DNA from: a virus | Direction: 5' to 3' (one strand) | DNA: 23,003 nucleotides | Virus record (IMG/VR): IMGVR_UViG_3300030044_000196 | Location: 1 to 23,003 of that record | Program-made: the position numbers and the translations under genes | Part shown: piece after piece, positions 1,742 through 23,003 of the stretch | Layout: every line of letters begins with the position of its first letter | Position numbering within the stretch: position 1 is the stretch's first letter | Notes under the pieces: generated by a model | What the model was told of the DNA's origin: nothing | Databases searched by the model: none | Seen by the model: only the letters and a program-made list of their open reading frames with translations

Positions 1742-2132
1742 AGTGCCAATTGGCACATTTCATGCTACGTTATGTGAGATGACACCTACGTTCAAAGATC
1801 TTCTTGACTTTGTGATGGCTAACAAAGGGCAGGAGATCTTTGAAGGAAGGACTGAATTGGAGATTGCCTCTTTGTTGAAGAAGGGGATTGATGAACAGTC
1901 TATGTACTTTGAACAGGGACTTGACGGGAAGATTGCTGGGATGATACTTGCAGAGTTTATCCCAGAGAAGAAATTGTGTTTCGTCACATTCAACATGGCA
2001 ATGTCTCTTGAACGACTTGGGAGGTTTGCTGCCAAACTCAAAGAGAGACATCCAGATTTTACACTTGCAGGAATACGACATGGTCGTGCAGTCTATTACA
2101 ACACTAAAAAACTTTATAGGAAGCTAATATGA
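1722..2132 (+). CDS. GNAT-fold-like internal virion protein (T7 gp13 analogue?)
   Basis: A 136-aa protein. The segment at about residues 66-101 (GLDGKIAGMILAEF, then PEKKLCFVTFNMAM) has the beta4-beta5 pattern of GNAT-type acetyltransferase folds. I do not see the usual acetyl-CoA pyrophosphate loop (Q/R-x-x-G-x-G/A), so catalysis is doubtful. In T7-like phages a small protein with this fold (gp13) sits at the head of the internal-virion block, and this gene holds that place here. It overlaps the 57-aa ORF and ends in an ATGA overlap with the next gene (2129), implying coupled translation. Alternative: an active acetyltransferase acting on host protein; less likely from position. Confidence 0.5.
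   Translation: MSARKYRVPIGTFHATLCEMTPTFKDLLDFVMANKGQEIFEGRTELEIASLLKKGIDEQSMYFEQGLDGKIAGMILAEFIPEKKLCFVTFNMAMSLERLGRFAAKLKERHPDFTLAGIRHGRAVYYNTKKLYRKLI
1744..1757. repeat. 14-bp perfect palindrome GTGCCAATTGGCAC
   Basis: A perfect 14-bp palindrome inside the 5' end of the GNAT-like gene. Its right half forms the -24 part of a sigma-54-like match read on the + strand (TTGGCACATTTCATGCT, 1750-1766). That match has GG-N10-GC spacing but a single mismatch in the -12 box (ATGC instead of TTGC). Because it lies in coding sequence it may be chance. A role as an operator or promoter is inference. Confidence 0.25.
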
Positions 2133-9146: not shown

Positions 9147-9149
9147 ACT
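9132..9149. terminator. Dyad at the convergent gene junction, possible weak bidirectional terminator
   Basis: AGTCTA (9132-9137) and TAGACT (9144-9149) form a perfect 6-bp inverted repeat with a 6-base loop. In RNA a G-U pair can add one more step. It contains the + strand stop codon (9144-9146) and touches the - strand stop (9149-9151), so it sits exactly where the two transcripts collide. The stem is only moderately stable and no clean T-run follows it on either strand, so termination is possible but not shown. Confidence 0.3.
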
Positions 9150-10528: not shown

Positions 10529-11634
10529 GTCAACTCCTGTAGTCCTAGAGGGTTAGATTCCTTTGCTGAGTTCCAGTTAAACCCTATATTCTGTTCAGAT
10601 TTCATCTTAAATTTAGTACCGTCATTTGGTGACACAAGGTCAATATTCATTCTCTGTCTCATTGCATCTCTGTTCTCTCTAACAAACATCAATGGACACT
10701 GTGTCAAAAAGGAGTCATGAGTGTCAGCAAGTAAGTCGTATGGTTTCTTGTTCTCCAGCATTTCCTCCAGGTAGTAGTTAGTCGAGGCAATGCGAGTAAT
10801 TTCGCCGACAGTTGATTGAGATGACCAAGCGTAGTATTCTTTCAACTTCTTGTCGATGTTGTAGTCTGTTAAGATGAATGGATGACCAAACAAATTGAAC
10901 AACATCCCAGTCTCTCTGATCTGTTTCTCGATCCTCTTGTTTCTCTCTGGCACCTCAGGGAATAGGGACCTGATAGTCAACAGAAAATTGCAAGCATCTT
11001 CGTTGGAGATGTAAATCTGACCTTCTGACTTCTCCAAGATATTCATCCTGAATGTAGGACCTTGTACGTCATATGAGAAAGAGTGAACTGTCTGTTTTGC
11101 TAGGTAGTAGTATCTCTCTCTTGCTTGCCAGTTGTCAGAGGACTTGATTAGCTTATCCATGTCAGACCAGAAAGGATTCTTCTTCAAGTCTTCGATTGGT
11201 GTGTTACACAGGAGGTCAATGTCCAACCCTTCAGTCAAACCACCAGAGTCTTTCAACTTCTTCTTCCACACGTCCTTGAACAACTTAAGGGCAACATAGA
11301 CATGTGGTTTGACGTTGTGGATAAACAACTGACGATAGTCAAGAGGGTCTGACTCGTATGCAACTATCAGTGCCTCTGCACCTGATTGGTCTGACTGGAT
11401 GAAGACCTTCAGACATAGCAACTCAATCTCTGTGAACTGGGATGTCTCGCCTGTCTTTATCCAGTGCAAACACTTCTCAGTAAGCGCGGGGGAGAGACCA
11501 TCTGGCTTATAGATCTGACGCATGTGTTTCTCAATGTTCTGTAAGTTACTACCCCAGTAACCTAAGATCTTTGTTGAGGAACGTCGAAAGGTCTTTGTGC
11601 CAGAAAGTTTGTATGTGGTGGAGTTTCTTAGCAT
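10519..11634 (-). CDS. Family-A DNA polymerase, C-terminal half (fingers and palm)
   Basis: A 371-aa protein holding the whole polymerase catalytic core. GYWGSNLQNI (25-34) matches the conserved block before motif A. Motif A is D82-Q-S-G-A-E87 (family D-x-S-x-x-E). Motif B spans about R172-Y188 with K180 and Y188, and motif C is H306-D307-S308, with Ser where Glu is commonest. The exonuclease and thumb are missing because they are encoded in the separate gene at 11956-13566. The start ATG overlaps the stop of the 42-aa ORF (ATGCTAA), so translation is probably coupled. The first residues (MLRNSTTYKL) continue the fold where the N-terminal gene stops. Family assignment is firm; two-chain activity is inferred. 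Confidence 0.85.
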   Translation of the reverse strand: MLRNSTTYKLSGTKTFRRSSTKILGYWGSNLQNIEKHMRQIYKPDGLSPALTEKCLHWIKTGETSQFTEIELLCLKVFIQSDQSGAEALIVAYESDPLDYRQLFIHNVKPHVYVALKLFKDVWKKKLKDSGGLTEGLDIDLLCNTPIEDLKKNPFWSDMDKLIKSSDNWQARERYYYLAKQTVHSFSYDVQGPTFRMNILEKSEGQIYISNEDACNFLLTIRSLFPEVPERNKRIEKQIRETGMLFNLFGHPFILTDYNIDKKLKEYYAWSSQSTVGEITRIASTNYYLEEMLENKKPYDLLADTHDSFLTQCPLMFVRENRDAMRQRMNIDLVSPNDGTKFKMKSEQNIGFNWNSAKESNPLGLQELTWL

Positions 11635-11756
11635 ATCTCTTGGAGGTAACCAAGATTAGCCAATTCGGCTCCGTAGAGTGCAGACATTGGACACCACCTA
11701 TAACCATGTTCTAATAACCACTGTTCTTGTTCAGGGAATGGACGTAGTATTTTCAT
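11628..11756 (-). CDS. 42-aa ORF between the polymerase halves
   Basis: A 42-codon ORF starting with the ATG at 11756, which overlaps the stop of the 68-aa gene as ATGA, and ending TAA at 11628-11630, seven bases inside the polymerase C-half gene. The peptide begins MKILRPFPEQEQWLLEHGY and contains two cysteines, several aromatics and leucines, and no known motif. Its perfect fit between two overlapping start/stop signals is the main evidence that it is translated. At minimum it carries ribosomes from the N-half to the C-half of the polymerase; whether the peptide itself does anything is unknown. Confidence 0.55.
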   Translation of the reverse strand: MKILRPFPEQEQWLLEHGYRWCPMSALYGAELANLGYLQEIC

Positions 11757-11959
11757 AAGTCACTCAAGTGTAATGCAGTTACGGTACAAGCTTCACACAA
11801 CTGATCTTCGTTGAATATGTGAAGTAAATGAAACTGGTCCATCTCAACAACATACCTTGTTTGTCCGTTGAGAGTATTGAACACAGAAACTACTGTTCCT
11901 GGGAATCCATAACCTGTTGGTTTGGTTACCCTGTCACCAACTTTAAACTTAGTGTTCAT
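11753..11959 (-). CDS. 68-aa SH3/KOW-like small protein inserted between polymerase halves
   Basis: A 68-aa protein starting MNTKFKVGDRVTKPTGYG, then PGTVVSVFNT, RYVVE and LLHIFNEDQL. The run 'F-x-V-G-D-R-V ... G-x-V-V-S-V' followed by short beta strands resembles small SH3/KOW-like beta-barrel proteins, which are common as small phage ORFs of unknown role. Its ATG overlaps the stop of the polymerase N-half as ATGA and its own stop overlaps the next ORF as ATGA. It is not part of the polymerase fold and has no homing-endonuclease motif. Function unknown; a polymerase-bridging or DNA-contact role would be speculation from position. Confidence 0.7.
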   Translation of the reverse strand: MNTKFKVGDRVTKPTGYGFPGTVVSVFNTLNGQTRYVVEMDQFHLLHIFNEDQLCEACTVTALHLSDL

Positions 11960-13566
11960 ATAAATGTTTCTTGTTGTTCGGCTACCAAGGGTTTTGTTAC
12001 TCTACCATCATGTCCCTTCCAAGGGATAAACCTAAAAGCTGAAGTCTCCTTCGCAACTTTCCTGTATGCAAGGACTAGTTGTATCACCGGATTATCAGGG
12101 TGTTTCATTGCAAGTCGATACATGATCTTCTTACCTAATGAGGGATCACCTGTCTGTGGTGATTTAAATAGAACAGGATAACCTAAGATCAAGTGGAAGT
12201 AAGCACAACATTGTTTGTTAGACCCCGGGAATAACTTTGGCTTTCCTTTTAGGTATGACCGAATTTCCACGAGACCCTCTAACCCTATCAGTAGGTTAAT
12301 CATCCTACAGTACTGCATCATCAGTCGGTCGTTCTCTCTGATCTGCCTCTGTCTGTCCTCGTCATCAAAGGCAATTCCTTGGATTGTCATACAGAGATAA
12401 GGAACAATAGAATCATTTGCACACTTAATGGACGACTCTAACCCAGGAATTGTCTCTGAGAACTTCTCGATCTCTCTGTGGATAAGGACCATTGTATAGA
12501 CATCCGCCCCACAATACTTCAACTTCTGCTTAACGTGTTCCTGTGTAAAGTATGCCCTGCTGTCTGTATCTTTGTGGAACTTCTCCCAAGTCCAGTAAGA
12601 CGTGCAATGACCTAATGACTTCTCAATACATGGGAAGCACCGATGCTGAGCCAGCATAGTATCATAGCACCTATGAACTGGGATTCGATATTTAAACCCA
12701 AGGACAAAGAAGTCAAAAGCTGCACCGTTATGAGCGACAATAATGTTGTCACGAATAGCAACCGCCAGTGCTCGAAGAATGAGGTGATAAGCACTATAAG
12801 CGGGATGGTAATTACCATCAAGAATAGGCACACAATAAATGTTAACACCGTCAAAAGAAAACGAGAAACAGAGTAGATTTTGTTCTTCATAGTCAGTCTC
12901 CATGTCAAAGTAGAAGAAAGAATTCTTTGTCCCTCTGAGGACTTGAACCACTTCTTGGGCGGGAGGGGAGAGGTGATAGCTGGGTTTAGGCCCACAGATC
13001 AAACCCTTTATGCGACTCCATCCCATTTTATCTTGTAGAATCTGTTTGACCTTCCATATATCCGCTCGCAACCAGAAAGCGTAATTAGATCTTTTTGTCG
13101 GGGAGAAACGTTTGACATCCCCTTCGTCTTCACTATCCTCAGATAGTTCATCGTCTGCCACAAAGTCTTTAGAATTTTCATTGAGTGTTGATTCCCAGTT
13201 TTTCATATCACAAGCATCTTGTGGGAAGTAAGATGCTATTGCAGGGATACCTTTGTATTGAAGGACTGAACCTCTCATCTCATTAAGAGTGTTGTCCTTT
13301 GTCTCTTCTGGACACCAAGCGTGCATTGTCTGCTCACCGAGCAGAAGGACACACTTAGTGTCAGGCAACAAGGGAACCATACACTCCATCACACGAACAT
13401 CACATTGCATCAGCGAGCACACAGGAGACAGTGCTTCATTAACTAGAATGCCAGATGAACCTTGCAGGAGGCGGACAGTATCAAACCGTGATGGATTGTT
13501 CAGGACAATTGTAAGACCTGAATACTTACCATACGGAATGTTTCTTGTTAGGTTGGGTGTTGCCAT
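11956..13566 (-). CDS. Family-A DNA polymerase, N-terminal half (UDG-like domain, 3'-5' exonuclease, thumb)
   Basis: A 536-aa protein. Residues about 1-130 look like a uracil-DNA-glycosylase-superfamily domain (VLLLGEQTMHAW, RGSVLQYKGIPAIASYFPQD), as found at the N-terminus of some phage family-A polymerases. An acidic linker spans 137-150. The proofreading exonuclease follows with Exo I D221-M-E223, Exo II H279-N280 to D285 and Exo III Y351 to D355, so all expected acidic residues are present. Residues about 385-516 resemble the polymerase thumb, ending AYRKVAKETSAFRFIPW. The gene stops just before the conserved block preceding motif A, which resumes in 10519-11634. The start has a strong AAGGAG nine bases upstream of ATG. 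Confidence 0.85.
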   Translation of the reverse strand: MATPNLTRNIPYGKYSGLTIVLNNPSRFDTVRLLQGSSGILVNEALSPVCSLMQCDVRVMECMVPLLPDTKCVLLLGEQTMHAWCPEETKDNTLNEMRGSVLQYKGIPAIASYFPQDACDMKNWESTLNENSKDFVADDELSEDSEDEGDVKRFSPTKRSNYAFWLRADIWKVKQILQDKMGWSRIKGLICGPKPSYHLSPPAQEVVQVLRGTKNSFFYFDMETDYEEQNLLCFSFSFDGVNIYCVPILDGNYHPAYSAYHLILRALAVAIRDNIIVAHNGAAFDFFVLGFKYRIPVHRCYDTMLAQHRCFPCIEKSLGHCTSYWTWEKFHKDTDSRAYFTQEHVKQKLKYCGADVYTMVLIHREIEKFSETIPGLESSIKCANDSIVPYLCMTIQGIAFDDEDRQRQIRENDRLMMQYCRMINLLIGLEGLVEIRSYLKGKPKLFPGSNKQCCAYFHLILGYPVLFKSPQTGDPSLGKKIMYRLAMKHPDNPVIQLVLAYRKVAKETSAFRFIPWKGHDGRVTKPLVAEQQETFI

Positions 13567-13575
13567 GAAATTGTT

Positions 13576-13612
13576 CTCCTTCTATTTAGACTCTAAAGGA
13601 GGAAGAGAGTCT
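13576..13612 (-). promoter_or_regulatory. Hairpin with anti-Shine-Dalgarno loop ahead of the polymerase gene
   Basis: On the - strand AGACTCT and AGAGTCT (13588-13612) form a perfect 7-bp stem with an 11-base loop reading CTTCCTCCTTT. The loop contains CTCCTT, the exact complement of the polymerase ribosome site AAGGAG at 13576-13581, which starts six bases after the stem. Loop-to-ribosome-site pairing could reduce polymerase translation, similar in idea to the T4 gp43 translational operator. The complementarity is seen; the regulation is inferred. Confidence 0.4.
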
Positions 13613-13617
13613 CTTGC

Positions 13618-13815
13618 TTACTCGACTGAGGTAATCTCGATTTTGCCACCTTGGCAAACGTCGTCGATAATACTCTCAGCGCCGTTGTCTTCAAGTTCTG
13701 CCTGTTTGACAATTTCTAATCGCTGCTCGTTTGTCATACTATCCCAACCAGAAATATCTTCCCGGTAGTACTCTCCAATTTCCAATGAACCAGTAATTGT
13801 GTAGTTAATCCTCAT
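13618..13815 (-). CDS. Unknown small acidic protein, 65 aa
   Basis: The ATG at 13815 is preferred because it lies four bases after the stop of the ssDNA-binding candidate; an earlier in-frame start at 13863 would overlap that gene by 44 bases. The 65-aa product begins MRINYTITGSLEIGEYY, is predominantly acidic, and ends in KIEITSVE. The pattern suggests a small alpha/beta fold with strands at both ends. I do not recognise it. It lies between the ssDNA-binding candidate and the polymerase, so a replication-accessory role is possible, but nothing in the sequence says which. Confidence 0.55.
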   Translation of the reverse strand: MRINYTITGSLEIGEYYREDISGWDSMTNEQRLEIVKQAELEDNGAESIIDDVCQGGKIEITSVE

Positions 13816-13819
13816 ATGC

Positions 13820-14416
13820 TCAATAAGGTTTGTTGCTACCAGCACCCTCAGGAGCCAACCCAAAGATCTCAGTCACTTCAGATTTCCACTTGACAATCTC
13901 CTTGCCAGTCACTGGATTCTTCTGGATGTCACCCTCAGGATGCTTGCCAGCCTTCTTCGCAGCAGCAATCTGTGCACCAGTAGGAGTCCTACGAACAGGG
14001 TCAGACTTACCCCTCATCTGTGCAAGAACACACTTACCAATGAACTGCTTCACGTTGGGGTTAGACTTGTCTTCCTGCGATCCATCAAGACCGAACTTCT
14101 CGAAGAGAGACTGACCAACTGCACTGTTCCCGATAAACACCTTGGCTTCGTCATTGGAAGTTTTGGCTTCGTCAGGCGAACCATCTGCATTGAAGTGGGC
14201 AGTAGTGTGGTAGGAAGTGGCGTTAACCCCAGCAATCACTACAATCTGTCCACCAATCTCATACGTGTCAGGAGCTACAACTTCCCAGTCCAGCGTAATC
14301 ATCGGATTGCCAGCGGACTTTGAAGGACCAAACGTTGCATTCTTCACCCGGAGAGTGAAGCAACTATCTGACGGGAACTGAATGTTGCTATTCCAATTTA
14401 CTTGTGATGTACTCAT
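13820..14416 (-). CDS. Putative single-stranded DNA-binding protein
   Basis: A 198-aa protein whose first half (about residues 17-70, CFTLRVKNATFGPSKSAGNP, then ITLDWEVVAP) has the pattern of phage DUF669-like/OB-fold ssDNA-binding proteins. Conserved beta strands are followed by basic segments at about 125-175. The C-terminus (GAGSNKPY) lacks the acidic tail of bacterial SSB. It sits between a Sak4-like recombinase and the DNA polymerase, the usual place for such a protein. There is no clear Shine-Dalgarno before the ATG; instead the leader holds two small hairpins. The assignment rests on pattern and context and is likely but not certain. Confidence 0.55.
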   Translation of the reverse strand: MSTSQVNWNSNIQFPSDSCFTLRVKNATFGPSKSAGNPMITLDWEVVAPDTYEIGGQIVVIAGVNATSYHTTAHFNADGSPDEAKTSNDEAKVFIGNSAVGQSLFEKFGLDGSQEDKSNPNVKQFIGKCVLAQMRGKSDPVRRTPTGAQIAAAKKAGKHPEGDIQKNPVTGKEIVKWKSEVTEIFGLAPEGAGSNKPY

Positions 14417-14426
14417 TTTGTTTTAT

Positions 14427-14487
14427 TGGCAGTTGGTTGCCAGCCTATTTGTTTTTGGTTGTTAAGAATCCTAAGGACAACTTAGGA
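14427..14487 (-). promoter_or_regulatory. Two hairpins in the leader of the ssDNA-binding gene
   Basis: The short gap before the ssDNA-binding gene holds two perfect dyads. TCCTAAG/CTTAGGA (14469-14487, loop 5) overlaps the stop of the 52-aa ORF. TGGCA/TGCCA (14427-14442, loop 6) lies about ten bases before the start codon. An A/C-rich unstructured stretch separates them. No Shine-Dalgarno is visible. The arrangement could be an autoregulatory RNA site or a weak attenuator; either is inference. Confidence 0.35.
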
Positions 14488-14640
14488 AAGTGTAAGAATA
14501 TAGTCAGCAACCTCTTGGAGAGTTGCACAGTAGTGAACGTCAGGTTGAGCTGGACCTTGACTGACGTCCAGTAGAGACTGTTCAGGTGGAGTAGAGACTA
14601 ACCATCCGTTGTTGATTTGACTGATGTGTATTTGTTTCAT
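14482..14640 (-). CDS. Unknown small protein, 52 aa
   Basis: A 52-codon ORF from the ATG at 14640 to TAA at 14482-14484, filling the gap between the Sak4-like gene (stop at 14649) and the ssDNA-binding gene. The product begins MKQIHISQINNGWLVSTPPE and ends CATLQEVADYILTLS. Two short strands around the N-G-W turn followed by a C-terminal helix (LQEVADYILT) give a sensible small fold, and this layout recurs in small phage proteins of unknown function. The leader is A-rich with no strong ribosome site. Probably translated; role unknown. Confidence 0.5.
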   Translation of the reverse strand: MKQIHISQINNGWLVSTPPEQSLLDVSQGPAQPDVHYCATLQEVADYILTLS

Positions 14641-14648
14641 TTTGTTTC

Positions 14649-15533
14649 TTATGCTTGTGGTTTGTTTGTGTCCACAAATTGTTTCCGGTACTTCTGGAAA
14701 GTTTCGTAATTAGCAAGGATGTACTTAGGTGCATCTCTCAATGAGGAAGAACCCCCGCCAAAGGTGTCATCACCTTGGATCTTCCAGAGGTGGAATGATC
14801 CATAGTTAATAGGTGTAGAAGCACACCATTCTTTCAGGGTAGTAGCGTTGATTCCAAAATACGACAAGGCTCTCTGTGTCTCATCATCAGTCTTTGGTTT
14901 AGCTATACACAACTGTCGGAAATAATCTGTAAAGTTAAGACCCATCTTGTCAGCTGCTTGACCTGTCAGGAGAGGGCTAATCTTACCATTGTACTCACCT
15001 TCTTTATCCCTCTCTTTCTGCTCATGACAGATGAATATCACATCACACTGAAGTGCTTTAATACAGTCCCACAACTCCTCGAAGTAGGCTTTCTTCAAGT
15101 CCCACTGGATGAACTTGTTAAATGTTCCTTTGGTAGAATGTGCCAACTCTGTCTCGTTAAACTTGTACCAGATATGATATGCTGTCTCAATGCCTGAGCA
15201 ACCATCAATGATTAGAGTCTGTTCATGTACCAACTTCAACCCCTCGGTTGAGAGCCACTTGGTAAGTGCTTCCTTCTTCGAGCAAGGAGCTTGAAGACCT
15301 GGTCTAGGGAGGATGGTGTCTACAAACTTAGGATCATAGAATGGTGCTATTGGAATGTCAGACCTGTGCAAGTGTGCAGAGACTTTCCTGTCGAAAGACA
15401 GGATGACTGGGTTAGGGAACGTCAGTGCTGAGGTAGTCTTACCAGAGAACGGTGCTCCCTGCACTATCAATCGTACTTGACTGTCCTCTGTCTGCGAAAG
15501 GAACTTACAGCCTTTGGGTGTGTATGGTGTCAT
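14649..15533 (-). CDS. Sak4-like RecA-fold ATPase (recombination mediator / annealase)
   Basis: A 294-aa P-loop ATPase with Walker A at 26-33 (GAPFSGKT), Walker B at about 106-110 (TLIID) and a downstream strand IFICHEQKERD (about 166-176) ending in a likely sensor. This short, single RecA-core layout without added domains is typical of phage AAA_24/Sak4 proteins, which work with a phage ssDNA-binding protein in recombination-dependent replication. The ssDNA-binding candidate is two genes downstream. The start overlaps the nucleotidyltransferase gene by four bases (ATGA). An alternative reading is a DnaB/RadA-like ATPase of other function. Confidence 0.7.
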   Translation of the reverse strand: MTPYTPKGCKFLSQTEDSQVRLIVQGAPFSGKTTSALTFPNPVILSFDRKVSAHLHRSDIPIAPFYDPKFVDTILPRPGLQAPCSKKEALTKWLSTEGLKLVHEQTLIIDGCSGIETAYHIWYKFNETELAHSTKGTFNKFIQWDLKKAYFEELWDCIKALQCDVIFICHEQKERDKEGEYNGKISPLLTGQAADKMGLNFTDYFRQLCIAKPKTDDETQRALSYFGINATTLKEWCASTPINYGSFHLWKIQGDDTFGGGSSSLRDAPKYILANYETFQKYRKQFVDTNKPQA

Positions 15534-15868
15534 GATAAGAAAAAGATGTCTACGCGTTTACCGTTGTACATGTACTTGATGACTTCTTTGTTATCATAGT
15601 ACTCTGCATGGATAGAGGTTCTGTCTTCTGCATCTACAAGACCAAACTCTGACAACATCTTGTTGAGATATTTTCTGTCAATTTGACCTGTCTTGTGTGG
15701 GTATATAAAGATATCTAAATCTTTAGTACTACTACCTCTATGCAGGACTGAACCTCCAAGAGCTACATGATAATGATTGTAGATCCTCTCGATCTTTGTC
15801 TCAAGAGCTCTGGCTACAACTAGAGCTTCCTCCAGAGACCACATCATGGGTGTAGGTGTTGGTGTCAT
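15530..15868 (-). CDS. Minimal nucleotidyltransferase (MNT/pol-beta fold)
   Basis: A 112-aa protein with the diagnostic G38-G39-S40 motif, then D50-L-D52 (GGSVLHRGSSTKDLDIF) and a third acidic residue, D107 (RVDIFF). All three predicted metal-binding aspartates of the pol-beta nucleotidyltransferase superfamily are therefore present. Nothing beyond the catalytic core is encoded, as in minimal nucleotidyltransferases that attach nucleotides to proteins or tRNA ends. The start may instead be M8 or M9, after the repeated Thr-Pro leader. It overlaps both neighbours by four bases in a nucleotide-metabolism group. Its substrate cannot be read from sequence. Confidence 0.7.
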   Translation of the reverse strand: MTPTPTPMMWSLEEALVVARALETKIERIYNHYHVALGGSVLHRGSSTKDLDIFIYPHKTGQIDRKYLNKMLSEFGLVDAEDRTSIHAEYYDNKEVIKYMYNGKRVDIFFLS

Positions 15869-16254
15869 TGCTTTGTGATTTGTTTGTCTAACAGTGGCTT
15901 AAGATCCGGCGAGCGGAAGGAAGGTCCTTTGATCCACTTACCACTCTTGTCTTTGTGCCCGTCAATGAACTTAGACATGTTGGATGAATGGACTTCTTGG
16001 AAGATAGGATCAATGTCCATACCATGAGCTACTGCTGTTCCAAGTACGACGTACAACAGATCAGCAATTGCGTCAGCGATCTCTGTGAGATCTTCTCTGA
16101 ATTGAGCAGCATTATACTCATCCAGTTCTTCCTGAATTAGTGCAACTCTTAATGCACGAATATCTGCACGGTCTGGTAAAGTTGTCGGCCTGTCAGGACA
16201 CTCTTGCTCAGCCTTCAACATAAACTCACGAACTTGTTCTTGCTCTTTCATCAT
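15865..16254 (-). CDS. MazG-like / phosphoribosyl-ATP pyrophosphohydrolase-like NTPase
   Basis: A 129-aa, all-helical protein with the family's acidic metal site: E42-E43-x-x-E46 (QEELDEY) in one helix and E58 to D65 (EIADAIADLLYV) in the next. MazG-type enzymes hydrolyse NTPs or dNTPs to monophosphates plus pyrophosphate; phage versions are thought to adjust nucleotide or alarmone pools. The C-terminal part includes SNMSKF and a Lys/Gly/Ser loop, often seen in this subgroup. GGAG lies upstream of the start; ATGATG offers two adjacent starts, and the first is used here because it overlaps the previous stop as ATGA. It lies next to the dNMP kinase, supporting a role in the dNTP pool. Confidence 0.75.
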   Translation of the reverse strand: MMKEQEQVREFMLKAEQECPDRPTTLPDRADIRALRVALIQEELDEYNAAQFREDLTEIADAIADLLYVVLGTAVAHGMDIDPIFQEVHSSNMSKFIDGHKDKSGKWIKGPSFRSPDLKPLLDKQITKQ

Positions 16255-16760
16255 ACTTTTATCTCCAATACTTTTGTTAGTAGATCTTTCAATGTTCCAT
16301 TGTTCTCAATCACTTTGTCAAACTTGTAGTCATCCAACTCAATCTCTGATGGATGCTTGTCTGTGGTGTCGTCATACATCTTTGTCACTCTGATGACAGA
16401 ACCACCCTGCTTTCTCACCCACTCTGCTTCGTCGAAGAAGCGAACATCAGGTATCAATAGAACTTTAAACCCTGACCTCTCGAACTGAGGAAGTGCTTCC
16501 TCTACTTTCCTTACCCAGTAGTCATGGCCATATAGATTACGTTTGTAGTCTGTACCATGACCCTGTAAGATAAGACGGAAGGCATCCTTGTGACTCTCAA
16601 TGAAGTCAACAGTAACACCGTACATGATTGCTACTTCGCGCTTCAAAGCATCAGCAAAGTGATACCTGATGGCACTACCTTTCGGTAGATTGGCTGCAAG
16701 TAGAGATGCTACTGTGTCTTTGCCTGATTTCTTCTTACCAGAGATTCCGATGATTTTCAT
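16251..16760 (-). CDS. Deoxynucleoside monophosphate kinase (dNMP kinase)
   Basis: A 169-aa kinase starting MKIIGISGKKKSGKDT, a P-loop at residues 8-16 of the GxxxSGKD type typical of T4 gp1-like phage dNMP kinases. IPDVRFFDEAEWVRKQGG (about 103-120) is the second conserved block, with the Asp-Val-Arg of the lid/substrate region. The length is shorter than T4 gp1 but normal for compact phage versions. It would convert dNMPs, including those from host DNA breakdown, to dNDPs. The ATG overlaps the stop of the nuclease gene (ATATGA), and the next gene starts by ATGA, so these genes are co-translated. Confidence 0.8.
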   Translation of the reverse strand: MKIIGISGKKKSGKDTVASLLAANLPKGSAIRYHFADALKREVAIMYGVTVDFIESHKDAFRLILQGHGTDYKRNLYGHDYWVRKVEEALPQFERSGFKVLLIPDVRFFDEAEWVRKQGGSVIRVTKMYDDTTDKHPSEIELDDYKFDKVIENNGTLKDLLTKVLEIKV

Positions 16761-17815
16761 ATGTCATTATAGTTAAGTGGATCGTGGTGTACTTGTTTGA
16801 AATTTCTCTTGAGAAGGACGTTCGCAACGTTGTCTGGATTCCTGCAACAGTCCCAGAACTGACACTTCACAAAGTTCTTCTCAGATACGTTCTGATACTT
16901 GATGCAAGTACCATTGATGATCCCAGTCTTTGGGAAGTAATTAGTCCTGATTGCTTCTGAGATCTCCCTGATCTTAGCATCAACCATCAACTGGAAGTTG
17001 TCGATCTCTCCGCCCGCAGTGAGGAATACCTCCGAGCGTTCAAAGGATGTAGCATTAGGGTCTTTGTCGAGGAAGATTGCGTCGATAAAGCAACCTATGT
17101 TTGTCTGACCTAACTGACCAAGTACAGATGTAGGGTGCATAGTGCCCATCAGCTTGATCGCTAGCTTGTACATCCTCAATTGCCTTGACAACTCGTACTG
17201 CTGGAAGTAACCTCTATTGTCCCAAGTGCCAGAAGTCTTCCAATCACCAAGAGCATAGCAACCGTTCTTGAACTTACCGATCTTGTCGATTGTTCCACAG
17301 AGGTTTACAATGATGTAATCGTCTTCGTAGTACTTGATTGAGAAGGTAACCTCTGTTGCTGGTTGCAGTAAGTTCTTCTCACCTTTGCAGGCAGGGCAAG
17401 GACCTTGATCTAACTGCCCACTCCCTCTACACCTCCAACAAGGAAGGACTAGTTGTAGTAACTCGAATGAGTTCTCTTGCATGACAAAATCAGTCCACAG
17501 ATTCATACAGACTGTCGATAGGTGCCTTTCGTCTCTCAGGTAAGGTTTCTTGGGGTGGTCCCTTGTGGGAATCTTAAACGCATCAAGAGCATACTTCCGT
17601 GCAATAGGCAGTTGCCCACCAGTCTTGTATGCCACGTCAATGAACTTATGAACCGCAACTCCATATGTCAACTCAGGTCCATTCAGGAGTTCTTTATAAC
17701 CACCTGTTGGTTGACCACTCTCTGCAACACTACCAACAACTGTTCGGTAGAAATCTAGGATGCAGGATGAGTGACCTAGAGAAGTGGAGTCGATATTGAT
17801 AATCAGTTTACTCAT
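16757..17815 (-). CDS. Cas4/RecB-like PD-(D/E)XK exonuclease with Fe-S cysteines and inserted DnaJ-type zinc motif
   Basis: A 352-aa nuclease. Core motifs are H56 (GVAVHKFI), D177 (GTIDKI), D191-W-K193 (GDWKTSG) and a Q212/Y216 helix (SRQLRMYKL), matching the PDDEXK_1/RecB-Cas4 family. C18 near the N-terminus plus C304, C318 and C323 or C324 near the C-terminus fit a 4Fe-4S staple like that in Cas4 and AddB. Unusually, residues 126-145 contain CWRCRGSGQ, then CPACKG: a CxxCxGxG repeat pair like one DnaJ zinc-finger module, inserted before the catalytic residues. It probably resects DNA ends for recombination with the Sak4-like ATPase. The ATG overlaps the upstream gene by eight bases. Confidence 0.8.
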   Translation of the reverse strand: MSKLIINIDSTSLGHSSCILDFYRTVVGSVAESGQPTGGYKELLNGPELTYGVAVHKFIDVAYKTGGQLPIARKYALDAFKIPTRDHPKKPYLRDERHLSTVCMNLWTDFVMQENSFELLQLVLPCWRCRGSGQLDQGPCPACKGEKNLLQPATEVTFSIKYYEDDYIIVNLCGTIDKIGKFKNGCYALGDWKTSGTWDNRGYFQQYELSRQLRMYKLAIKLMGTMHPTSVLGQLGQTNIGCFIDAIFLDKDPNATSFERSEVFLTAGGEIDNFQLMVDAKIREISEAIRTNYFPKTGIINGTCIKYQNVSEKNFVKCQFWDCCRNPDNVANVLLKRNFKQVHHDPLNYNDI

Positions 17816-18164
17816 TTACAAGTGCTCCTGCTGGATGACCTTTGTAGGTGTAGTTTTCTACAACATACTTGAATGAGAGAAAAACAGCATTAATACACAT
17901 ACCACCATCATCAACACTGGTGATCAGTCCCCTGCCAAGGGGGTTACTAACCACCTCTCCCACCGGAACTTCCTCCACAGTCCAAGGACGATACTTTGGT
18001 TCTGGTTTGATGCGATAGTACTCAGGCGGGCTAGAGAAGTTGATTGTCTCTCCTGGAGTAATCGCTGACCAAGTCTGGTATTGGATAAGATTAATCTCCA
18101 ATGTACTACCCTCACTCCATGCTTTAATGATTGGCCACATCTTCTTAGCTTGTTCTTGATTCAT
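17808..18164 (-). CDS. Conserved-looking phage protein of unknown function, 118 aa
   Basis: A 118-aa protein. The central segment PPEYYRIKPEPKYRPWTVEE (about 46-65) is a pattern recurring in many small phage proteins that combine a modified 'PEYYRIKPE' strand with a following 'PW-x-x-EE' turn. The second half is beta-rich with a Gly-rich loop (SNPLGRGLITSVDDGG). No catalytic or metal site is visible. GGAAG precedes the ATG. It overlaps the previous gene by four bases and the nuclease gene by eight. Role unknown; its place among the genes behind the putative sigma-54 promoter suggests expression together with replication functions. Confidence 0.6.
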   Translation of the reverse strand: MNQEQAKKMWPIIKAWSEGSTLEINLIQYQTWSAITPGETINFSSPPEYYRIKPEPKYRPWTVEEVPVGEVVSNPLGRGLITSVDDGGMCINAVFLSFKYVVENYTYKGHPAGALVNE

Positions 18165-18403
18165 TTTCTTCCTTTCTTTTTTGTGATAAACTCTGGATCA
18201 ACTCCCATCGCAATCAGAGCATCCATTGCTCGTTTCTTGCTTGGTGATATATAAGGAGCTGGTTCAGTTTTCTTTGGTGTTATTGTTCTTGCTCTCTCAG
18301 GTCTAGTGACGTTGAGAAATGGTTCGAAATGCTTTAGAAGTTCTGCATCAGATAACTTCTCCAACTGATCAGCAGAACAGTCTAGCAGTTGGGTAAGAGT
18401 CAC
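18161..18403 (-). CDS. Unknown small protein, 80 aa, GTG start
   Basis: An 80-aa protein starting with GTG, which overlaps the stop of the upstream gene as GTGA. It begins with a helical, acidic part (about 1-32, TQLLDCSADQLEKLSDAELL), followed by a Pro/Lys-rich basic middle (about 35-58). A short helix and a Lys-rich tail (ITKKKGRK) follow. The split between an acidic helix and a basic tail is typical of small phage adaptor or nucleic-acid-associated proteins, but I recognise no family. Confidence 0.55.
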   Translation of the reverse strand: MTLTQLLDCSADQLEKLSDAELLKHFEPFLNVTRPERARTITPKKTEPAPYISPSKKRAMDALIAMGVDPEFITKKKGRK

Positions 18404-19032
18404 AGCGATGTCCTTATGATACTGATGTGCCTCTCGTCAACGGCGTACTGTACTCCACGGACAGTTGACAACATCGTCTTGATGTCAACAATCTCCTCTG
18501 GAGAGAGGGCTAAGTTGTCCTGTGTGAAGGGTTCCCAGTTGTCAGAGTCCTCTATCCAATCTGTCATCTTCCTATACCAGACTGGTTTGCCTTCGCGCGG
18601 GGCGACAAGGACTGGCTTTAGACCATCAGTCCCAGACAACCCAGCAAGGAAGGAGATACGAACACCGAGTCCCCTGACTCGTTCTACTTTCACAGAGTCA
18701 TACCACCGTTCATAAATGCCAGCTTTGTCTAGTCCATTCTGTGGTTCAACAAGGAATCTGATTGATTGATTGACTCTATTATACAGAGTCTGTGATGACA
18801 CTCCAGTCTCAGGTGTACACCATTGAGAGTAGTAGTAGATGATGTTCTCACCAGTTTGAATCATCGCGTCGATGGCCTCCTTGATCTCAAGGGCATATAC
18901 CTTCTTGTAGTAAGGTGCGTTAGATCGGTGTGACCAACCTGCTGGTTTAGTTGATGTTAACATGTTGACTAGTTTCTCTGAAAGTTTCTGCGAAGGGAAG
19001 AGTGCCTTGGCTAGGTCCTCAGGAGTGTTCAT
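18400..19032 (-). CDS. Unknown protein, 210 aa
   Basis: A 210-aa soluble protein. The N-terminal half looks helical (residues about 1-85: EDLAKALF, then LSEKLVNML and KEAIDAMI). The middle is beta-rich (about 112-155, KVERVRGLGVRISF, then LKPVLVAPREGKPVWY). It is rich in Tyr and Trp, has a single cysteine and no P-loop or metal motif. The ATG overlaps the stop of the 89-aa gene by four bases and its own stop overlaps the next gene as GTGA. It is the second gene after the putative sigma-54 promoter. I cannot assign a function; nucleic-acid or host-protein binding are both open. Confidence 0.6.
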   Translation of the reverse strand: MNTPEDLAKALFPSQKLSEKLVNMLTSTKPAGWSHRSNAPYYKKVYALEIKEAIDAMIQTGENIIYYYSQWCTPETGVSSQTLYNRVNQSIRFLVEPQNGLDKAGIYERWYDSVKVERVRGLGVRISFLAGLSGTDGLKPVLVAPREGKPVWYRKMTDWIEDSDNWEPFTQDNLALSPEEIVDIKTMLSTVRGVQYAVDERHISIIRTSL

Positions 19033-19298
19033 ACTTCCTTCTCGTAGATTTGCTCCATCACAAACTTGTGAGTTCTGACGATTGCACCTGGCTCAAACTG
19101 ACAAGCCATCCGAAGAAGGATCATTGCATCTTGGTAGCAGAGATGGATACGAGTAGGTTGTTGGTTCTCTGTGAACGAGAGATCAATGAATGTCTTTGCC
19201 ACGTAAGAACCACAGACCATACACATCTGTTTGGATTCTTTTGGTGCGGGTGGAAAGCTGGGAAGTGGAGGCTGTTCCTCTGTGTTGTTTAAACTCAT
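19029..19298 (-). CDS. Unknown 89-aa protein with CxxC motif, first gene after the sigma-54 promoter
   Basis: An 89-aa protein with a Pro-rich N-terminus (about 8-20) and a possible small metal site: C26-M-V-C29 and, about 25 residues later, H-L-C (HLCYQDA). The remainder is a short helix-rich domain. The ATG lies about 25 bases downstream of the transcription start expected from the sigma-54-type promoter, with three tandem AATCA units in the leader and no obvious Shine-Dalgarno. It overlaps the next gene by four bases. As the leading gene of this transcription unit it might have an early or regulatory role, but that is inference from position; the zinc idea is tentative. Confidence 0.55.
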   Translation of the reverse strand: MSLNNTEEQPPLPSFPPAPKESKQMCMVCGSYVAKTFIDLSFTENQQPTRIHLCYQDAMILLRMACQFEPGAIVRTHKFVMEQIYEKEV

Positions 19299-19333
19299 AG
19301 TGATTTGATTTGATTGGTGTGGATGTTTTACTC

Positions 19334-19350
19334 AGCAATTTCTGTGCCAA
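19334..19350 (-). promoter_or_regulatory. Sigma-54 (RpoN) -24/-12 promoter
   Basis: The - strand reads TTGGCACAGAAATTGCT. Against the consensus YTGGCAC-R-N4-TTGCW every defined position matches, and the essential GG and GC doublets are exactly ten bases apart. It lies in one of the few intergenic gaps of the minus arm (19299-19374), directly after the NtrC-like ATPase gene and pointing into the downstream operon. The expected start is near 19323-19324, leaving a leader of about 25 bases before the ATG at 19298. The upstream TGCCA/TGGCA half-sites could form an additional dyad. Activity depends on a host RpoN, which the window cannot show. Confidence 0.7.
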
Positions 19351-19374
19351 GAATATGGCAAGTATAACTCCTAA

Positions 19375-20253
19375 CTATGATATACTCCCCCACACATTGT
19401 AACGAATAACATACTTCTGGATTGATCGGACATTGTGAGACAAGTCCAACTGACCAGCCTTTAATGCTCCGCCCCACTGCTCTAAGAACTTCCCAGAGTC
19501 AGATAGAGATCGAGCAATAGGTACTGTGTCACCAAGACGAGCCTTCAATGGAGTGATGTTCAATGTCAACGTAGAAATACGAGCAAGAAGATCTTCACGG
19601 AACTCCCTAGTCTTAACCATCTCCTCTAGGTTCCTATTAGTTGCAAAGACAAACTTACAGTCAATGTCCTCCTCGTCAACTGCACCTACCTTACAGATCT
19701 TATTCTCTTGGAGAACCCGTAGAAGTTTTGACTGCATTCCAAGTGGCAGTTCTCCTACTTCATCCATGAACATTACACCACCTTGGGCCTCAGAGATCAA
19801 GCCATTCTTTGTTCCAGTTGCACCGGTGAAAGAGCCCTTCATGTGACCAAAGAGAATGGACTCAATAAGTGTCTCAGGAATACCAGCACAGTTCACTGCC
19901 TTGAAGGCACCCTTGCGGGCGGCAATCATAGAGGATGCAATGATCTCTTTGCCTGTACCAGTTGCACCATAGATTAGAACAGCGTGTTGACTCTTAGAAG
20001 CCTTGAGTGCTCTATCTTTCATCTCCAACATTGCCTGATCTTCTGTGATGAATCTCTTCAACTTCAACTCACCTGCACAGAGCGTATCAACAAGACGAAA
20101 GGAACCATCAGTACACGGTTGAATTGTGTATGGAAGTTTGCCTCTATCAATATAGTCTTGGACGATAGGAACAAAGTCTTCCCCGTTTGCAAGCTGCATC
20201 TCTAATTGAAAACGAGAGAGTGTTTTAGTGGGGGTAGTAGTGGGTGGTGTCAT
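19375..20253 (-). CDS. NtrC-type sigma-54 activator AAA+ ATPase lacking receiver and DNA-binding domains
   Basis: A 292-aa protein. Residues about 1-75 are a non-receiver N-terminus. The bEBP AAA+ core follows with Walker A GATGTGKE (96-103) and ESILFGHMKGSFTGA with loop 1 GSFTGA at 140-145, a variant of the sigma-54-contacting GAFTGA. Walker B is D164-E165 (FMDEVG), sensor I N206, arginine fingers R219 and R225 (FREDLLAR) and sensor II near R276. It ends shortly after sensor II, so the usual Fis-type helix-turn-helix is absent. Such activators can work from solution without DNA binding. A matching RpoN promoter lies just downstream. The ATG overlaps an upstream in-frame stop as ATGA. Confidence 0.85.
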   Translation of the reverse strand: MTPPTTTPTKTLSRFQLEMQLANGEDFVPIVQDYIDRGKLPYTIQPCTDGSFRLVDTLCAGELKLKRFITEDQAMLEMKDRALKASKSQHAVLIYGATGTGKEIIASSMIAARKGAFKAVNCAGIPETLIESILFGHMKGSFTGATGTKNGLISEAQGGVMFMDEVGELPLGMQSKLLRVLQENKICKVGAVDEEDIDCKFVFATNRNLEEMVKTREFREDLLARISTLTLNITPLKARLGDTVPIARSLSDSGKFLEQWGGALKAGQLDLSHNVRSIQKYVIRYNVWGSIS

Positions 20254-20312
20254 ATAAGTTTCTTGTACTTCGCGATCAAGTCATCATACTCAAGTAACTT
20301 CTGCTGGAGAAC
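20250..20312 (-). other. 20-codon in-frame extension after the stop of the 125-aa gene
   Basis: Directly after the TGA of the 125-aa ORF the same frame stays open for 20 codons (LQQKLLEYDDLIAKYKKLI after an initial Val), which look like a charged amphipathic helix. It closes with a TGA overlapping the ATG of the NtrC-like gene as ATGA, the junction used throughout this operon. No ATG, GTG or good ribosome site starts this stretch. It may be a readthrough tail, the end of a gene truncated by a point mutation, or a small ORF frameshifted near its start (ATGAGT at 20317-20312). Confidence 0.35.
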
Positions 20313-20690
20313 TCATTTGTTTCCTTTCTCCTTTTGTGATTTGTTAAATTGTTTCTCACACCATGCTTTCCAGATGGACTGAGCCTTCTCACCGGTGTAA
20401 GTGAGTCGATGGTTTGCTTGGACTTGAAGAGTGGTGTATGGAATCCATTCGTCAATGATGCCAAGATAGAATGCTCTCTCTAGCATCGTTGTCTCCTCTC
20501 GAAGCTGTGACCCTGCACCAACAAATCCAGGATACACAACAATAGCTGGTGCCTCACACTCAAACTCATGACCATGAACTGTTGGTTGAGTTGGCTTTGA
20601 CTGACGCCTATAGTTCCCATCAGCTGTACACCAACCAGTCCAAGCGTACTGAACCTTGTTTAGGTCAACGACTATGCGATTATTTTTCAT
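20313..20690 (-). CDS. Unknown protein, 125 aa
   Basis: A 125-aa protein beginning MKNNRIVVDLNKVQYAW. The first 55 residues appear beta-rich with a Gly/Asp/Asn loop (TADGNYRRQSKP). The middle has two strands (APAIVVYPGFVG). The C-terminal third is helical and basic (KAQSIWKAWCEKQFNKSQ, then KEKGNK). It is rich in Trp and contains three cysteines without a clear metal pattern. It overlaps its upstream neighbour by four bases; downstream the frame continues past the stop (see 20250-20312). I recognise no family. Its position directly before the NtrC-like ATPase could mean a link to regulation, but this is only proximity. Confidence 0.55.
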   Translation of the reverse strand: MKNNRIVVDLNKVQYAWTGWCTADGNYRRQSKPTQPTVHGHEFECEAPAIVVYPGFVGAGSQLREETTMLERAFYLGIIDEWIPYTTLQVQANHRLTYTGEKAQSIWKAWCEKQFNKSQKEKGNK

Positions 20691-20908
20691 CGTTCAATGA
20701 TGGTGTATTGTGCACTGTCTAGATACCAATTGCCACCGTAGATTGGGTCAACCCAATTGCAAGCAAATGTTATTGAGGAGTCTTCACCACGTGCCAACTG
20801 TGCATCAATGATCGTACTAGCTGCCAACTCAATGGCATTCTCCAGTGTGATACCACACTGAACCATCGACTTAATATTCTTCAACGAACTGTGAACTTTG
20901 ATTTTCAT
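20687..20908 (-). CDS. Unknown small protein, 73 aa
   Basis: A 73-aa protein. The N-terminus MKIKVHSSLKNIKSMVQ gives a strand and helix, followed by a second helix (LENAIELAASTIIDAQL) and a C-terminal beta part (SSITFACNWVDPIYGGNWYLDSAQ). The helix-strand mix suggests a small alpha/beta fold. No catalytic motif is seen. It overlaps the ligase gene by four bases (ATATGA) and the 125-aa gene by four bases at the other end, so it is co-translated with both. Function unknown. Confidence 0.55.
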   Translation of the reverse strand: MKIKVHSSLKNIKSMVQCGITLENAIELAASTIIDAQLARGEDSSITFACNWVDPIYGGNWYLDSAQYTIIER

Positions 20909-21828
20909 ATATCAATCTCATTTCTAAGTCCTACATAGATAGGACTTCTTGGTTTAGTTTTAACACCATGGGACTTAGACTTGATTGTAATTGTTTTCCA
21001 CAACCACTTATCTTTGTCCGCCCAAATCTCTCGACGCTTTTGGTCGGTCAATCCAACACCAGTCCCAACCCTGAACTCAAGACCAACATTGTCACGAACA
21101 AGGAATGCACCCAATGTCCCTTTGCCAACCAGTAGAGCACCAGCTGATGACCTGTCCATCTTACCAACTGCATTCCTTTTCTCTGGATTGCAGTTCAACA
21201 TCTGCTCTTCAAATCCAATGATGATGCACTCCGACCGGGTGAAGCGAGCTAGCTTGACTAGGTATTGTTCCCTCAGCGTAGAACGACCTTGCTTGTAAGG
21301 AGAGTAAGGCGCTCGGAAACAAATACCCTCACCTTGTTGCTCTTCACATTCGTGGAAGAATTCCAACAGCTCTCGGGGGGATGTACAAGCTACAAGTTCA
21401 GGTAAGACACAGAAAGGAGGTAGTGATGGTCGTTCAAAGATAGCAGTATCTATCCTATCTTTGTACCCCATATTGTATCCTCTATCCCACCAGTCAAGGA
21501 CATGGAACTGTATCTTGTCAGAGTCAGGATGTTCCTCTGACATCACGATTGATTCTACTTGGTCGTAAGGTAAGTCCTTATTCCACAACTCCATGTCAAA
21601 CCCATATGGAAGGGAGTCTGACCTCTGCTGGAGCAGTTTGTTGGGGATCTTCTTCAGAGTCCTAGAGGCCAAGTCACCTAGTTTGATTGCTCTTATACCA
21701 TCCTTCTTTAAGGAAGCAATGACTGGGTAACAAAGTTTCTTCATTGCTTCTAAGATGGAAGAATCAGAGTGATCTGACTCTGAACTCAACAAAGAAGCAG
21801 CTAGCATTGGTTTGGTGAAAGGTATCAT
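20905..21828 (-). CDS. ATP-dependent DNA ligase (altered motif V)
   Basis: A 307-aa ligase with nucleotidyltransferase motif I K41-K-D43-G44 (the AMP-accepting lysine), motif III-like F77-D-M-E80-L, motif IV E167-G-I-C-F-R172 and a C-terminal OB-like part (about 205-300). In motif V the sequence is LVK192-L-A194-RF, where family members typically have K-x-K, so the second lysine is replaced by alanine. Other motifs look intact. Length is close to small viral ligases with no extra domains. It seals nicks during replication and recombination. The start overlaps the helicase stop by four bases. Confidence 0.85.
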   Translation of the reverse strand: MIPFTKPMLAASLLSSESDHSDSSILEAMKKLCYPVIASLKKDGIRAIKLGDLASRTLKKIPNKLLQQRSDSLPYGFDMELWNKDLPYDQVESIVMSEEHPDSDKIQFHVLDWWDRGYNMGYKDRIDTAIFERPSLPPFCVLPELVACTSPRELLEFFHECEEQQGEGICFRAPYSPYKQGRSTLREQYLVKLARFTRSECIIIGFEEQMLNCNPEKRNAVGKMDRSSAGALLVGKGTLGAFLVRDNVGLEFRVGTGVGLTDQKRREIWADKDKWLWKTITIKSKSHGVKTKPRSPIYVGLRNEIDI

Positions 21829-23003
21829 TCTTCTCCTTCTTGTTCTACCAGACCGTCTCCTTCAAGATCATCTGGTAAGGTTTCTTTGTATTTTTCTATG
21901 TCTTCTGTCCGACCACCGACTACCATATTACTCCATGGTTCTTTGTGTTTCACTATCTTCGACAAACACCTCAACCCCTTCCCTGCAATGTCTGCCACTC
22001 GACCTTCGATGGTTCCTTTGTAGAAAACAAGCCACTGTTTAGTCACTGACAGGGAGGTAAGTCTTGGCGCGCGGCCAACACCTTGGACTAGTTCAATTGG
22101 TGACCACGTAGGAGTAACGAGAACTTCTCTCGGACGGGTAGGTATCAGTGGAATATCCTCCTCCACAACATACCCTGACTCCTTTCTCCTGCATCTTTTC
22201 TCAGCAGGAAAGACTTCATCAGTATGATGCAGAGACAACCCCACACCACCAGCCTTCAACGTATAGATACAGTATAAAGTCTTACCAGATTGGAACTTGT
22301 CTATCTCCTTCTGTCTCTCCTCGAAGGACTGCATCCCAAGACGAAGGTGTTCTGGCAGATCAAGAATCTCCCTCTCCTCAACATCCTCAAGAGCTAGAGC
22401 CTCAAGCAACTCTTCACGTGTAGTTCCTTGTGTTTGTAGTTGCTTGTCTGTCAGACTCATTATCTTTGACTTGGCCTTTTGTTTTTCTGTCAACTGAGTC
22501 TGACCACCACCCCAGATGATGGAGATTTGATCTCGTGTTACTCCCTTTCTCTCAAACTCAAGAATCATCTGTATGATTGTAGGCTTGAAACTAAGAGCAC
22601 ACACTGCTGCCTTACCACCTTCGACGATCTCCATCATCCTATTGACTAAGTACTTATGTCTAATGTACTCAGCAGCCATGCGAAACTTGAGGAACTGTAC
22701 CAGTAGAGCCATGCCTGTAGGAATACCAGCAAGTGACTTTGCTTCCAGCTTTGCCTTCTCCTCCAAATACCTCTCCCAAGCTTTCTCATAGTACTCCCTC
22801 TCTTCCCTTGACTGGAAGTCAATCATCTGAACTTTGTTGTCAGCTTCAAACTGCGGACGTACACCTTTCACCCTGACAACATACTCACTCAGGTCATCCA
22901 TCAACCTCTCGACTGCTGCTTCATTGTAGTCCTCAGGAGCACCTTCACCTGCAATTACCTTAGCATACTGAGGCCAAGTCTCATTCGTCAAGATAGCATT
23001 CTC
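21825..23003 (-). CDS. SF2 DNA helicase, C-terminal part (5' end outside window)
   Basis: The frame is open to the edge of the window (E-N-A-I-L-T-N-E-T-W), and no ATG is seen where a start would be needed, so this is the C-terminal half of a longer gene. Visible features are a helicase C domain with motif V-like YTLKAGGVGLSLHHTDEV and motif VI-like ELVQGVGRAPR followed by WLVFYKGTIEGRVADI. The N-terminal Walker A/DExx part lies outside. The arrangement is typical of SNF2/SF2 phage helicases used in replication or recombination. The acidic C-terminus (DDLEGDGLVEQEGEE) ends in an ATGA overlap with the ligase gene. Confidence 0.75.
   Translation of the reverse strand, partial: ENAILTNETWPQYAKVIAGEGAPEDYNEAAVERLMDDLSEYVVRVKGVRPQFEADNKVQMIDFQSREEREYYEKAWERYLEEKAKLEAKSLAGIPTGMALLVQFLKFRMAAEYIRHKYLVNRMMEIVEGGKAAVCALSFKPTIIQMILEFERKGVTRDQISIIWGGGQTQLTEKQKAKSKIMSLTDKQLQTQGTTREELLEALALEDVEEREILDLPEHLRLGMQSFEERQKEIDKFQSGKTLYCIYTLKAGGVGLSLHHTDEVFPAEKRCRRKESGYVVEEDIPLIPTRPREVLVTPTWSPIELVQGVGRAPRLTSLSVTKQWLVFYKGTIEGRVADIAGKGLRCLSKIVKHKEPWSNMVVGGRTEDIEKYKETLPDDLEGDGLVEQEGEE

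Follow-up and report, generated by a model that had tools for sequence, protein, structure and literature searches.

Several phages are known to redirect the transcription machinery of their host, and T4 MotA/AsiA, Mu Mor/C and P2 Ogr are middle or late activators that do so with the sigma-70 holoenzyme. To our knowledge, none of these is an ATP-hydrolysing sigma-54 remodeller, and most described phage programmes rely on redirected sigma-70 holoenzyme, on a sigma factor of their own or on their own RNA polymerase. Among bacterial activators, PspF, the phage-shock activator of E. coli, is a bEBP without a regulatory domain, and those of the FlgR/CtcC type have no DNA-binding domain. The -24/-12 promoters of Pseudomonas phage YuA are said, in 2008 work by Ceyssens et al., to use host RpoN. 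According to PMC5053324, phages seldom make use of host sigma-54, and the development of YuA depends on it strictly; the same paper uses the isolated catalytic domain of PspF (PspF1-275) to activate sigma-54 promoters in vitro. Pectobacterium phage Q19 has a weak sigma-54-like protein (PMC7693777). The GenBank record of YuA (AM749441) annotates three -24/-12 promoters in the structural region; no YuA protein matches Sigma54_activat above the cut-off, and the first 50 kb hold no match to the strict pattern TTGGCAYN5YTGCT.

The phage family described here resembles YuA in having -24/-12 promoters and, presumably, in using host RpoN. Unlike YuA, where sigma-54 serves the particle/lysis region only and no activator was found, this family has sites before early, replication, packaging and capsid-position blocks, and its phages bring their own activator. 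In common with MotA/AsiA, Mor/C and Ogr, this activator would be an early phage protein turning on later operons via host RNA polymerase. The biochemistry of bEBPs and RpoN is already known; as a phage strategy, their use appears to be new. The initial annotation of this locus was not aware of the scheme as a standard one among phages, and our search of mainly open-access literature found no description of a phage that encodes a sigma-54 activator together with promoters for it.

The predicted activator and its adjoining element

The window, that is, the whole 23-kb stretch analysed, is a phage fragment in IMG/VR, and the phage, itself uncultured, has dozens of relatives. Tail-region genes occupy the plus strand. 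On the minus strand, genes for a helicase and a DNA ligase, a pair of small genes and the ATPase gene run from 22991 down to 19375, and a 76-nt gap separates the ATPase stop from an ATG at 19298, beyond which lies the replication block. No tRNA or Rfam family was found in the window. The features are as follows.

20313 to 22991, minus strand: upstream part of the ATPase operon (two small ORFs, ligase and helicase)
21825 to 22991, minus strand: helicase, truncated by the contig end
20905 to 21828, minus strand: ATP-dependent DNA ligase, part of the ATPase operon
19375 to 20253, minus strand: predicted mini sigma-54 activator, an NtrC/PspF-type AAA+ ATPase of 292 aa (Pfam, motifs, AlphaFold)
19945 to 19968, minus strand: Walker A GATGTGKE, residues 96-103 (motif reading)
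19819 to 19836, minus strand: GSFTGA loop (sigma-54 contact loop), residues 140-145 (motif reading)
19759 to 19776, minus strand: Walker B VMFMDE, residues 160-165 (motif reading)
19579 to 19602, minus strand: arginine-finger region FREDLLAR, residues 218-225 (conserved among phage relatives)
ATPase residues 274-278, minus strand: sensor II NVRSI (motif reading)
19360 to 19374, minus strand: conserved upstream block TTAGGAGTTATACTT
19361 to 19369, minus strand: recurring upstream motif AGTTATACT, lying within TTAGGAGTTATACTT
19334 to 19350, minus strand: predicted sigma-54 -24/-12 element TTGGCACAGAAATTGCT, GG at 19348-19347 and GC at 19336-19335
19323, minus strand: predicted start of transcription, lying 12 nt from the -12 element
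19029 to 19298, minus strand: first gene past the promoter, encoding 89 aa with motifs of the CxxC type
9149 to 19032, minus strand: replication/recombination block downstream of the promoter
Within 9149 to 19032, minus strand: conserved cl1 (cluster 1) gene, member of the replication block
16757 to 17815, minus strand: exonuclease-like, replication block
14649 to 15533, minus strand: Sak4-like, replication block
11956 to 13566, minus strand: split DNA polymerase A, exonuclease-side ORF, replication block
10519 to 11634, minus strand: split DNA polymerase A, polymerase-side ORF, replication block
9149 to 10528, minus strand: primase/helicase, replication block

The ATPase matches PF00158 (Sigma54_activat) over residues 69-231 with E=1.2e-54 and 184.9 bits (cut-off 20.2). 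Every catalytic part of an NtrC-type activator, which the initial annotation had attributed to it, was recovered: the Walker A and B motifs, the GSFTGA loop, the arginine finger and sensor II. The loop is a variant of the majority form GAFTGA in which F and T are kept, and a GAFTGA, GSFTGA or GSYTGA loop is present in most of 36 phage relatives, with altered loops in a few (GSYTGS in L040, GAFTDA in L046, a further change in L088). A C-terminal Fis-type HTH for enhancer binding was looked for in the ATPase and is absent, since the protein ends 14 residues past the sensor II motif; it has no receiver domain, and a small helix-helix-hairpin segment lies at its N-terminus. The AlphaFold model, built from the 36 phage relatives, reaches a pLDDT of 95.1, and in the PDB it matches best the AAA+ domains of FleQ, FlrC, NtrC4, NtrC1 and LuxO, with PspF lower in the list. 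Among predicted viral protein structures, the top matches are remote AAA+ proteins (TM 0.54-0.55, 13-15% identity) and no activator of this type is among the best matches; the best phage protein family match is PHROG 7998, of unknown function (E=1.8e-34). Judged by its sequence, the product of 19375-20253 is an HTH-less sigma-54 activator with an intact catalytic core. It shares with PspF and other bEBPs the AAA+ core, the GxFTGA loop, the Walker motifs, the arginine fingers and the lack of a receiver domain. On the other hand, it differs from PspF-type bEBPs in being phage-encoded and naturally HTH-less with a shortened lid, in the N-terminal helix-helix-hairpin segment of its subgroup, and in a gene position directly preceding its predicted target promoter.

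The element TTGGCACAGAAATTGCT lies 24 nt past the ATPase stop, inside the 76-nt gap; nowhere else in the window is TTGGCACN5TTGCW matched without a mismatch. With its correct GG-N10-GC spacing and its agreement with the consensus TGGCAC-N5-TTGCW, it bears out at 19334-19350 the initial claim of a sigma-54 consensus site on the same strand in the adjoining gap. The chance of such a site had been put at about 0.01 per window; the order of magnitude stands, while the value rises to 0.03 per window, both strands, in a first-order Markov simulation. In -24/-12 promoters the start is predicted by a spacing convention, 12 nt past the -12 element, which gives 19323. The exonuclease, Sak4-like, DNA polymerase and primase/helicase genes downstream share the strand of the promoter.

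The window, being a fragment, contains only this one convincing -24/-12 site. A second candidate, TTGGCACATTTCATGCT at 1750-1766 on the plus strand, has the right spacing and lies within the ORF 1722-2132, and was therefore taken as probably due to chance; a short inverted repeat, GTGCCAATTGGCAC, accompanies it at 1744-1766 (plus strand) in the same ORF. As a separate observation, a small ORF sits between the two DNA polymerase A halves of the window (10519-13566, minus strand). The split is common to most relatives, and the polymerase is one ORF of ~790-840 aa in G017, G020, G026, G027 and G028.

Occurrence of the sites in the phage family

In G003, a 49-kb relative whose ATPase is 63% identical, TTGGCATGAAAAATGCT stands in the same position as TTGGCACAGAAATTGCT, the 15-bp block TTAGGAGTTATACTT just upstream of the element is identical to that of the window, and an ORF resembling the 89-aa gene occupies the same place. 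Loci with more distant ATPases (L002-L008, 37-42% identity) carry TTGGCACAGTTCTTGCT, TTGGCACACTTCCTGCT or TTGGCATGGTTCTTGCT 13-45 nt past the ATPase stop. A wider set of 80 ATPase loci came down to 42 at an 80% identity threshold, and near and far sites were counted for the ATPases with enough flanking DNA, namely 29 non-redundant HTH-less and 11 HTH-bearing ones. A same-strand site occurs within ~80 nt downstream of 20/29 HTH-less ATPases and within 700 nt of 26/29, as compared with 0/11 for long-tailed or HTH-bearing, host-type activators (near class, Fisher p=1.5e-4, the 29 loci being related and not fully independent). The initial annotation had named a promoter lost from ATPase-bearing relatives as an outcome that would refute its model, and the model withstood this comparison. 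The sites of the 29 loci vary in distance and in the variable positions. Three HTH-less loci (L067, L074, L092) have no site within 700 nt, and the L074 genome has one ~2 kb further on.

Some records with ATPase matches were set aside: five human-fecal "Bacteriophage sp." GenBank contigs, whose activators are HTH-bearing and host-type, and Salmonella, Listeria and Acinetobacter "phage" records that, by names and annotations only, resemble host DNA. A gut phage outside the family, Phage DP SC_2_H4_2017 (MT121960.1, L012), encodes an HTH-less GAFTGA ATPase in a 307-aa frame at 19761-20684; the canonical site is absent from the whole stretch examined.

In 30 records, the strict pattern TTGGCAYN5YTGCT matched 63 times and its reversed control once; 973 kb of family DNA yielded 57 matches, and 225 kb of viral DNA from outside the family yielded none. 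As a spacing control, a relaxed pattern was run over 22 family records (0.97 Mb, ~95% coding). With the correct spacer of 5 it yields 126 matches, 85 of them outside predicted genes, as opposed to 4-14 matches each, 0-3 outside genes, for spacers of 2, 3, 4, 6, 7, 8 and 10; the enrichment is thus confined to the correct spacing.

The sites fall upstream of the helicase-ligase-ATPase operon of relatives (class A), between the ATPase and the replication block (class B), upstream of the capsid-position gene (class C) and, in about ten records, ahead of the terminase/portal operon (class D, part of a group otherwise called "other"). Because class A sites precede the operon of the activator itself, they imply a putative positive feedback on the activator. 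The initial annotation had the promoter switch on the polymerase and helicase block; the comparison argues for such a role, whereas its restriction to a single promoter falls, with more sites found elsewhere. A G003 site at 16192, within the counterpart there of the window's ORF 1722-2132, encodes the peptide TGMVLAE and was taken as a coding coincidence. The same genome (L014-L016) carries, at 40135-42674 of its record, a tandem paralogue array of four successive cl 65 genes (186-220 aa), downstream of a -24/-12 site at 43087.

As the preceding sets had been picked via the ATPase, the capsid-position gene (cluster 12) was taken as an independent bait. It follows the terminase, portal-position and cluster-11 genes, is named by gene order alone, and on that ground its product is probably the major capsid protein. 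A -24/-12 element lies 125-306 nt upstream of its start in 35/35 bait loci (33 viral and 2 in MAGs, some being near-duplicates), and, as a control, 41 kb of coding DNA from the gene itself contain 5 element matches. The ATPase is encoded in 12/12 bait-selected records above 48 kb, and the records without an ATPase match are fragments of 14-34 kb. The capsid-position protein has no relative in 50,697 GenBank phage records, so that the family is apparently without an isolate there; PHROG, Pfam and PDB profile searches with it gave no reliable match, and its structure prediction (pLDDT 31.6) is unusable.

In an unbiased word count upstream of the family sites, AGTTATA, ATATAAC and their relatives rank top. 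With up to 1 mismatch, AGTTATACT occurs 23 times upstream of sites against 6.4 +/- 2.8 in shuffles; its density is 1.83 per kb there and 0.54 per kb in the remaining intergenic DNA of these genomes. The copies lie mostly 13-70 nt upstream of the element, and such a motif (up to 1 mismatch) is found at only 22/84 sites. The motif may be bound by the N-terminal segment of the ATPase, by a partner or by some other factor. An IMG/VR scan for the conserved upstream block combined with TGGCAY returned 18 loci, of which the G003 record alone also has the ATPase. Around 3300-3800 of G012, 243 9-mers are shared between site-upstream regions against 34 expected, which points to duplication of promoter regions, or just to overlap between the stretches upstream of adjacent sites.

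Proposed mechanism and alternatives

We propose that the phage makes a minimal HTH-less bEBP whose hexamer would hydrolyse ATP and remodel host RpoN-RNA polymerase waiting at the phage -24/-12 promoters. The promoter directly after the activator gene would turn on the replication block; in relatives, the same activator would also drive the terminase/portal and capsid-position operons and raise its own helicase-ligase-ATPase operon by positive feedback. By extrapolation, these last three controls may also exist in the unsequenced rest of the window's genome. Hexamer formation and the ATP-driven opening of the RpoN holoenzyme are deduced from established bEBP biochemistry, and the assignment of one activator, with feedback, to the replication, packaging and capsid blocks from gene order; the catalytic core, the promoter elements, their spacing specificity, positions and orientation, and their co-conservation with the ATPase are read directly from the sequences, and ATPase activity, use of host RpoN, timing and the feedback loop are predictions. 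A search of 20 family records for a phage-encoded sigma-54 gene found none, so that host RpoN would have to serve. Targeting could be achieved by the AGTTATACT-like upstream motif, by a partner protein or by activation from solution, and the first ATPase transcript may come from some of the sigma-70-like pairs noted below. To the core of this mechanism, the opening of host RpoN holoenzyme at phage promoters by the phage HTH-less activator, we assign a probability of about 0.88, the lack of the C-terminal HTH used by most such activators counting against it, together with the few relatives that have no site within 700 nt or an altered loop and the single convincing site of the window.

The RpoN promoters could also be real and be opened mainly by host activators, with the phage ATPase in an auxiliary role, boosting or modulating the traffic of host sigma-54. 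The missing HTH would fit such a role, and YuA, with its three annotated promoters and its lack of a Sigma54_activat protein above the cut-off, must function in this manner unless an unrecognised activator exists there. We nevertheless regard it as unlikely for the present family: every long family record has both the ATPase and the sites, HTH-less phage activators are tied to sites and HTH-bearing ones are not, and a family-wide programme hanging on variable host signals would need no ATPase of its own.

Less probable still is a role of the ATPase as a takeover factor, in which it would titrate host sigma-54 or divert it, with the nearby element as a decoy or binding site. While phage proteins acting on the sigma-54 holoenzyme exist, such as Xp10 P7, which inhibits it (PMC5053324), each site class here points to, and sits just upstream of, co-directional operons, and decoys would not need the 125-306 nt placement before the capsid-position gene seen throughout the bait loci. 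As for a common AAA+ gene lying by accident beside a fortuitous -24/-12 match, a single site in a single window (~0.03 expected) could be granted to it; conservation down to 30-40% protein identity, the spacing control and the independent bait leave it a negligible share, and as an explanation of the family-wide pattern chance is refuted.

The activation of host RpoN holoenzyme by the phage's own ATPase thus remains our preferred reading. Since the phage carries the ATPase switch as well as sites before its main blocks, most of the infection programme would probably run through host sigma-54. That sigma-54 is the main driver of the whole gene-expression programme is a view towards which we lean with some reserve, and we hold with similar caution the broader picture of a large uncultured lineage running its whole programme on host sigma-54 with one HTH-less bEBP, feedback, a phage-specific upstream motif and no phage sigma. 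Without an ATPase, sigma-54 promoters stay completely off; by bringing this ATPase, a phage would gain a tight, near leak-free switch. If correct, this would represent a new way of host takeover, and rpoN would count among the host-range and phage-resistance genes for a widespread group of phages; studies of sigma-54 remodelling would gain a natural HTH-less activator, and a compact switch acting on sigma-54 promoters would become available as a tool. The regulatory signature furthermore lets otherwise unannotated viral contigs be recognised.

Search for the host

The host search matched two MAG contigs, one in an archaeal and one in a Proteobacteria MAG, and 384 genomes of the class of the latter gave no further match. 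The archaeal case is a family contig (L173, JACTVG010000014.1) in a MAG labelled Methanoregulaceae archaeon, which holds a mini-ATPase on another contig; because archaea lack sigma-54, the contig is almost certainly misbinned. Bacteroidota-type promoters are not enriched in the family. Shine-Dalgarno-like sequences are rare in the 22 family records, preceding 0-36% of genes above 450 nt with many records near 10%, and their scarcity may point to a host using few of them. Finally, sigma-70-like pairs were observed 6 times against 1.8 expected.
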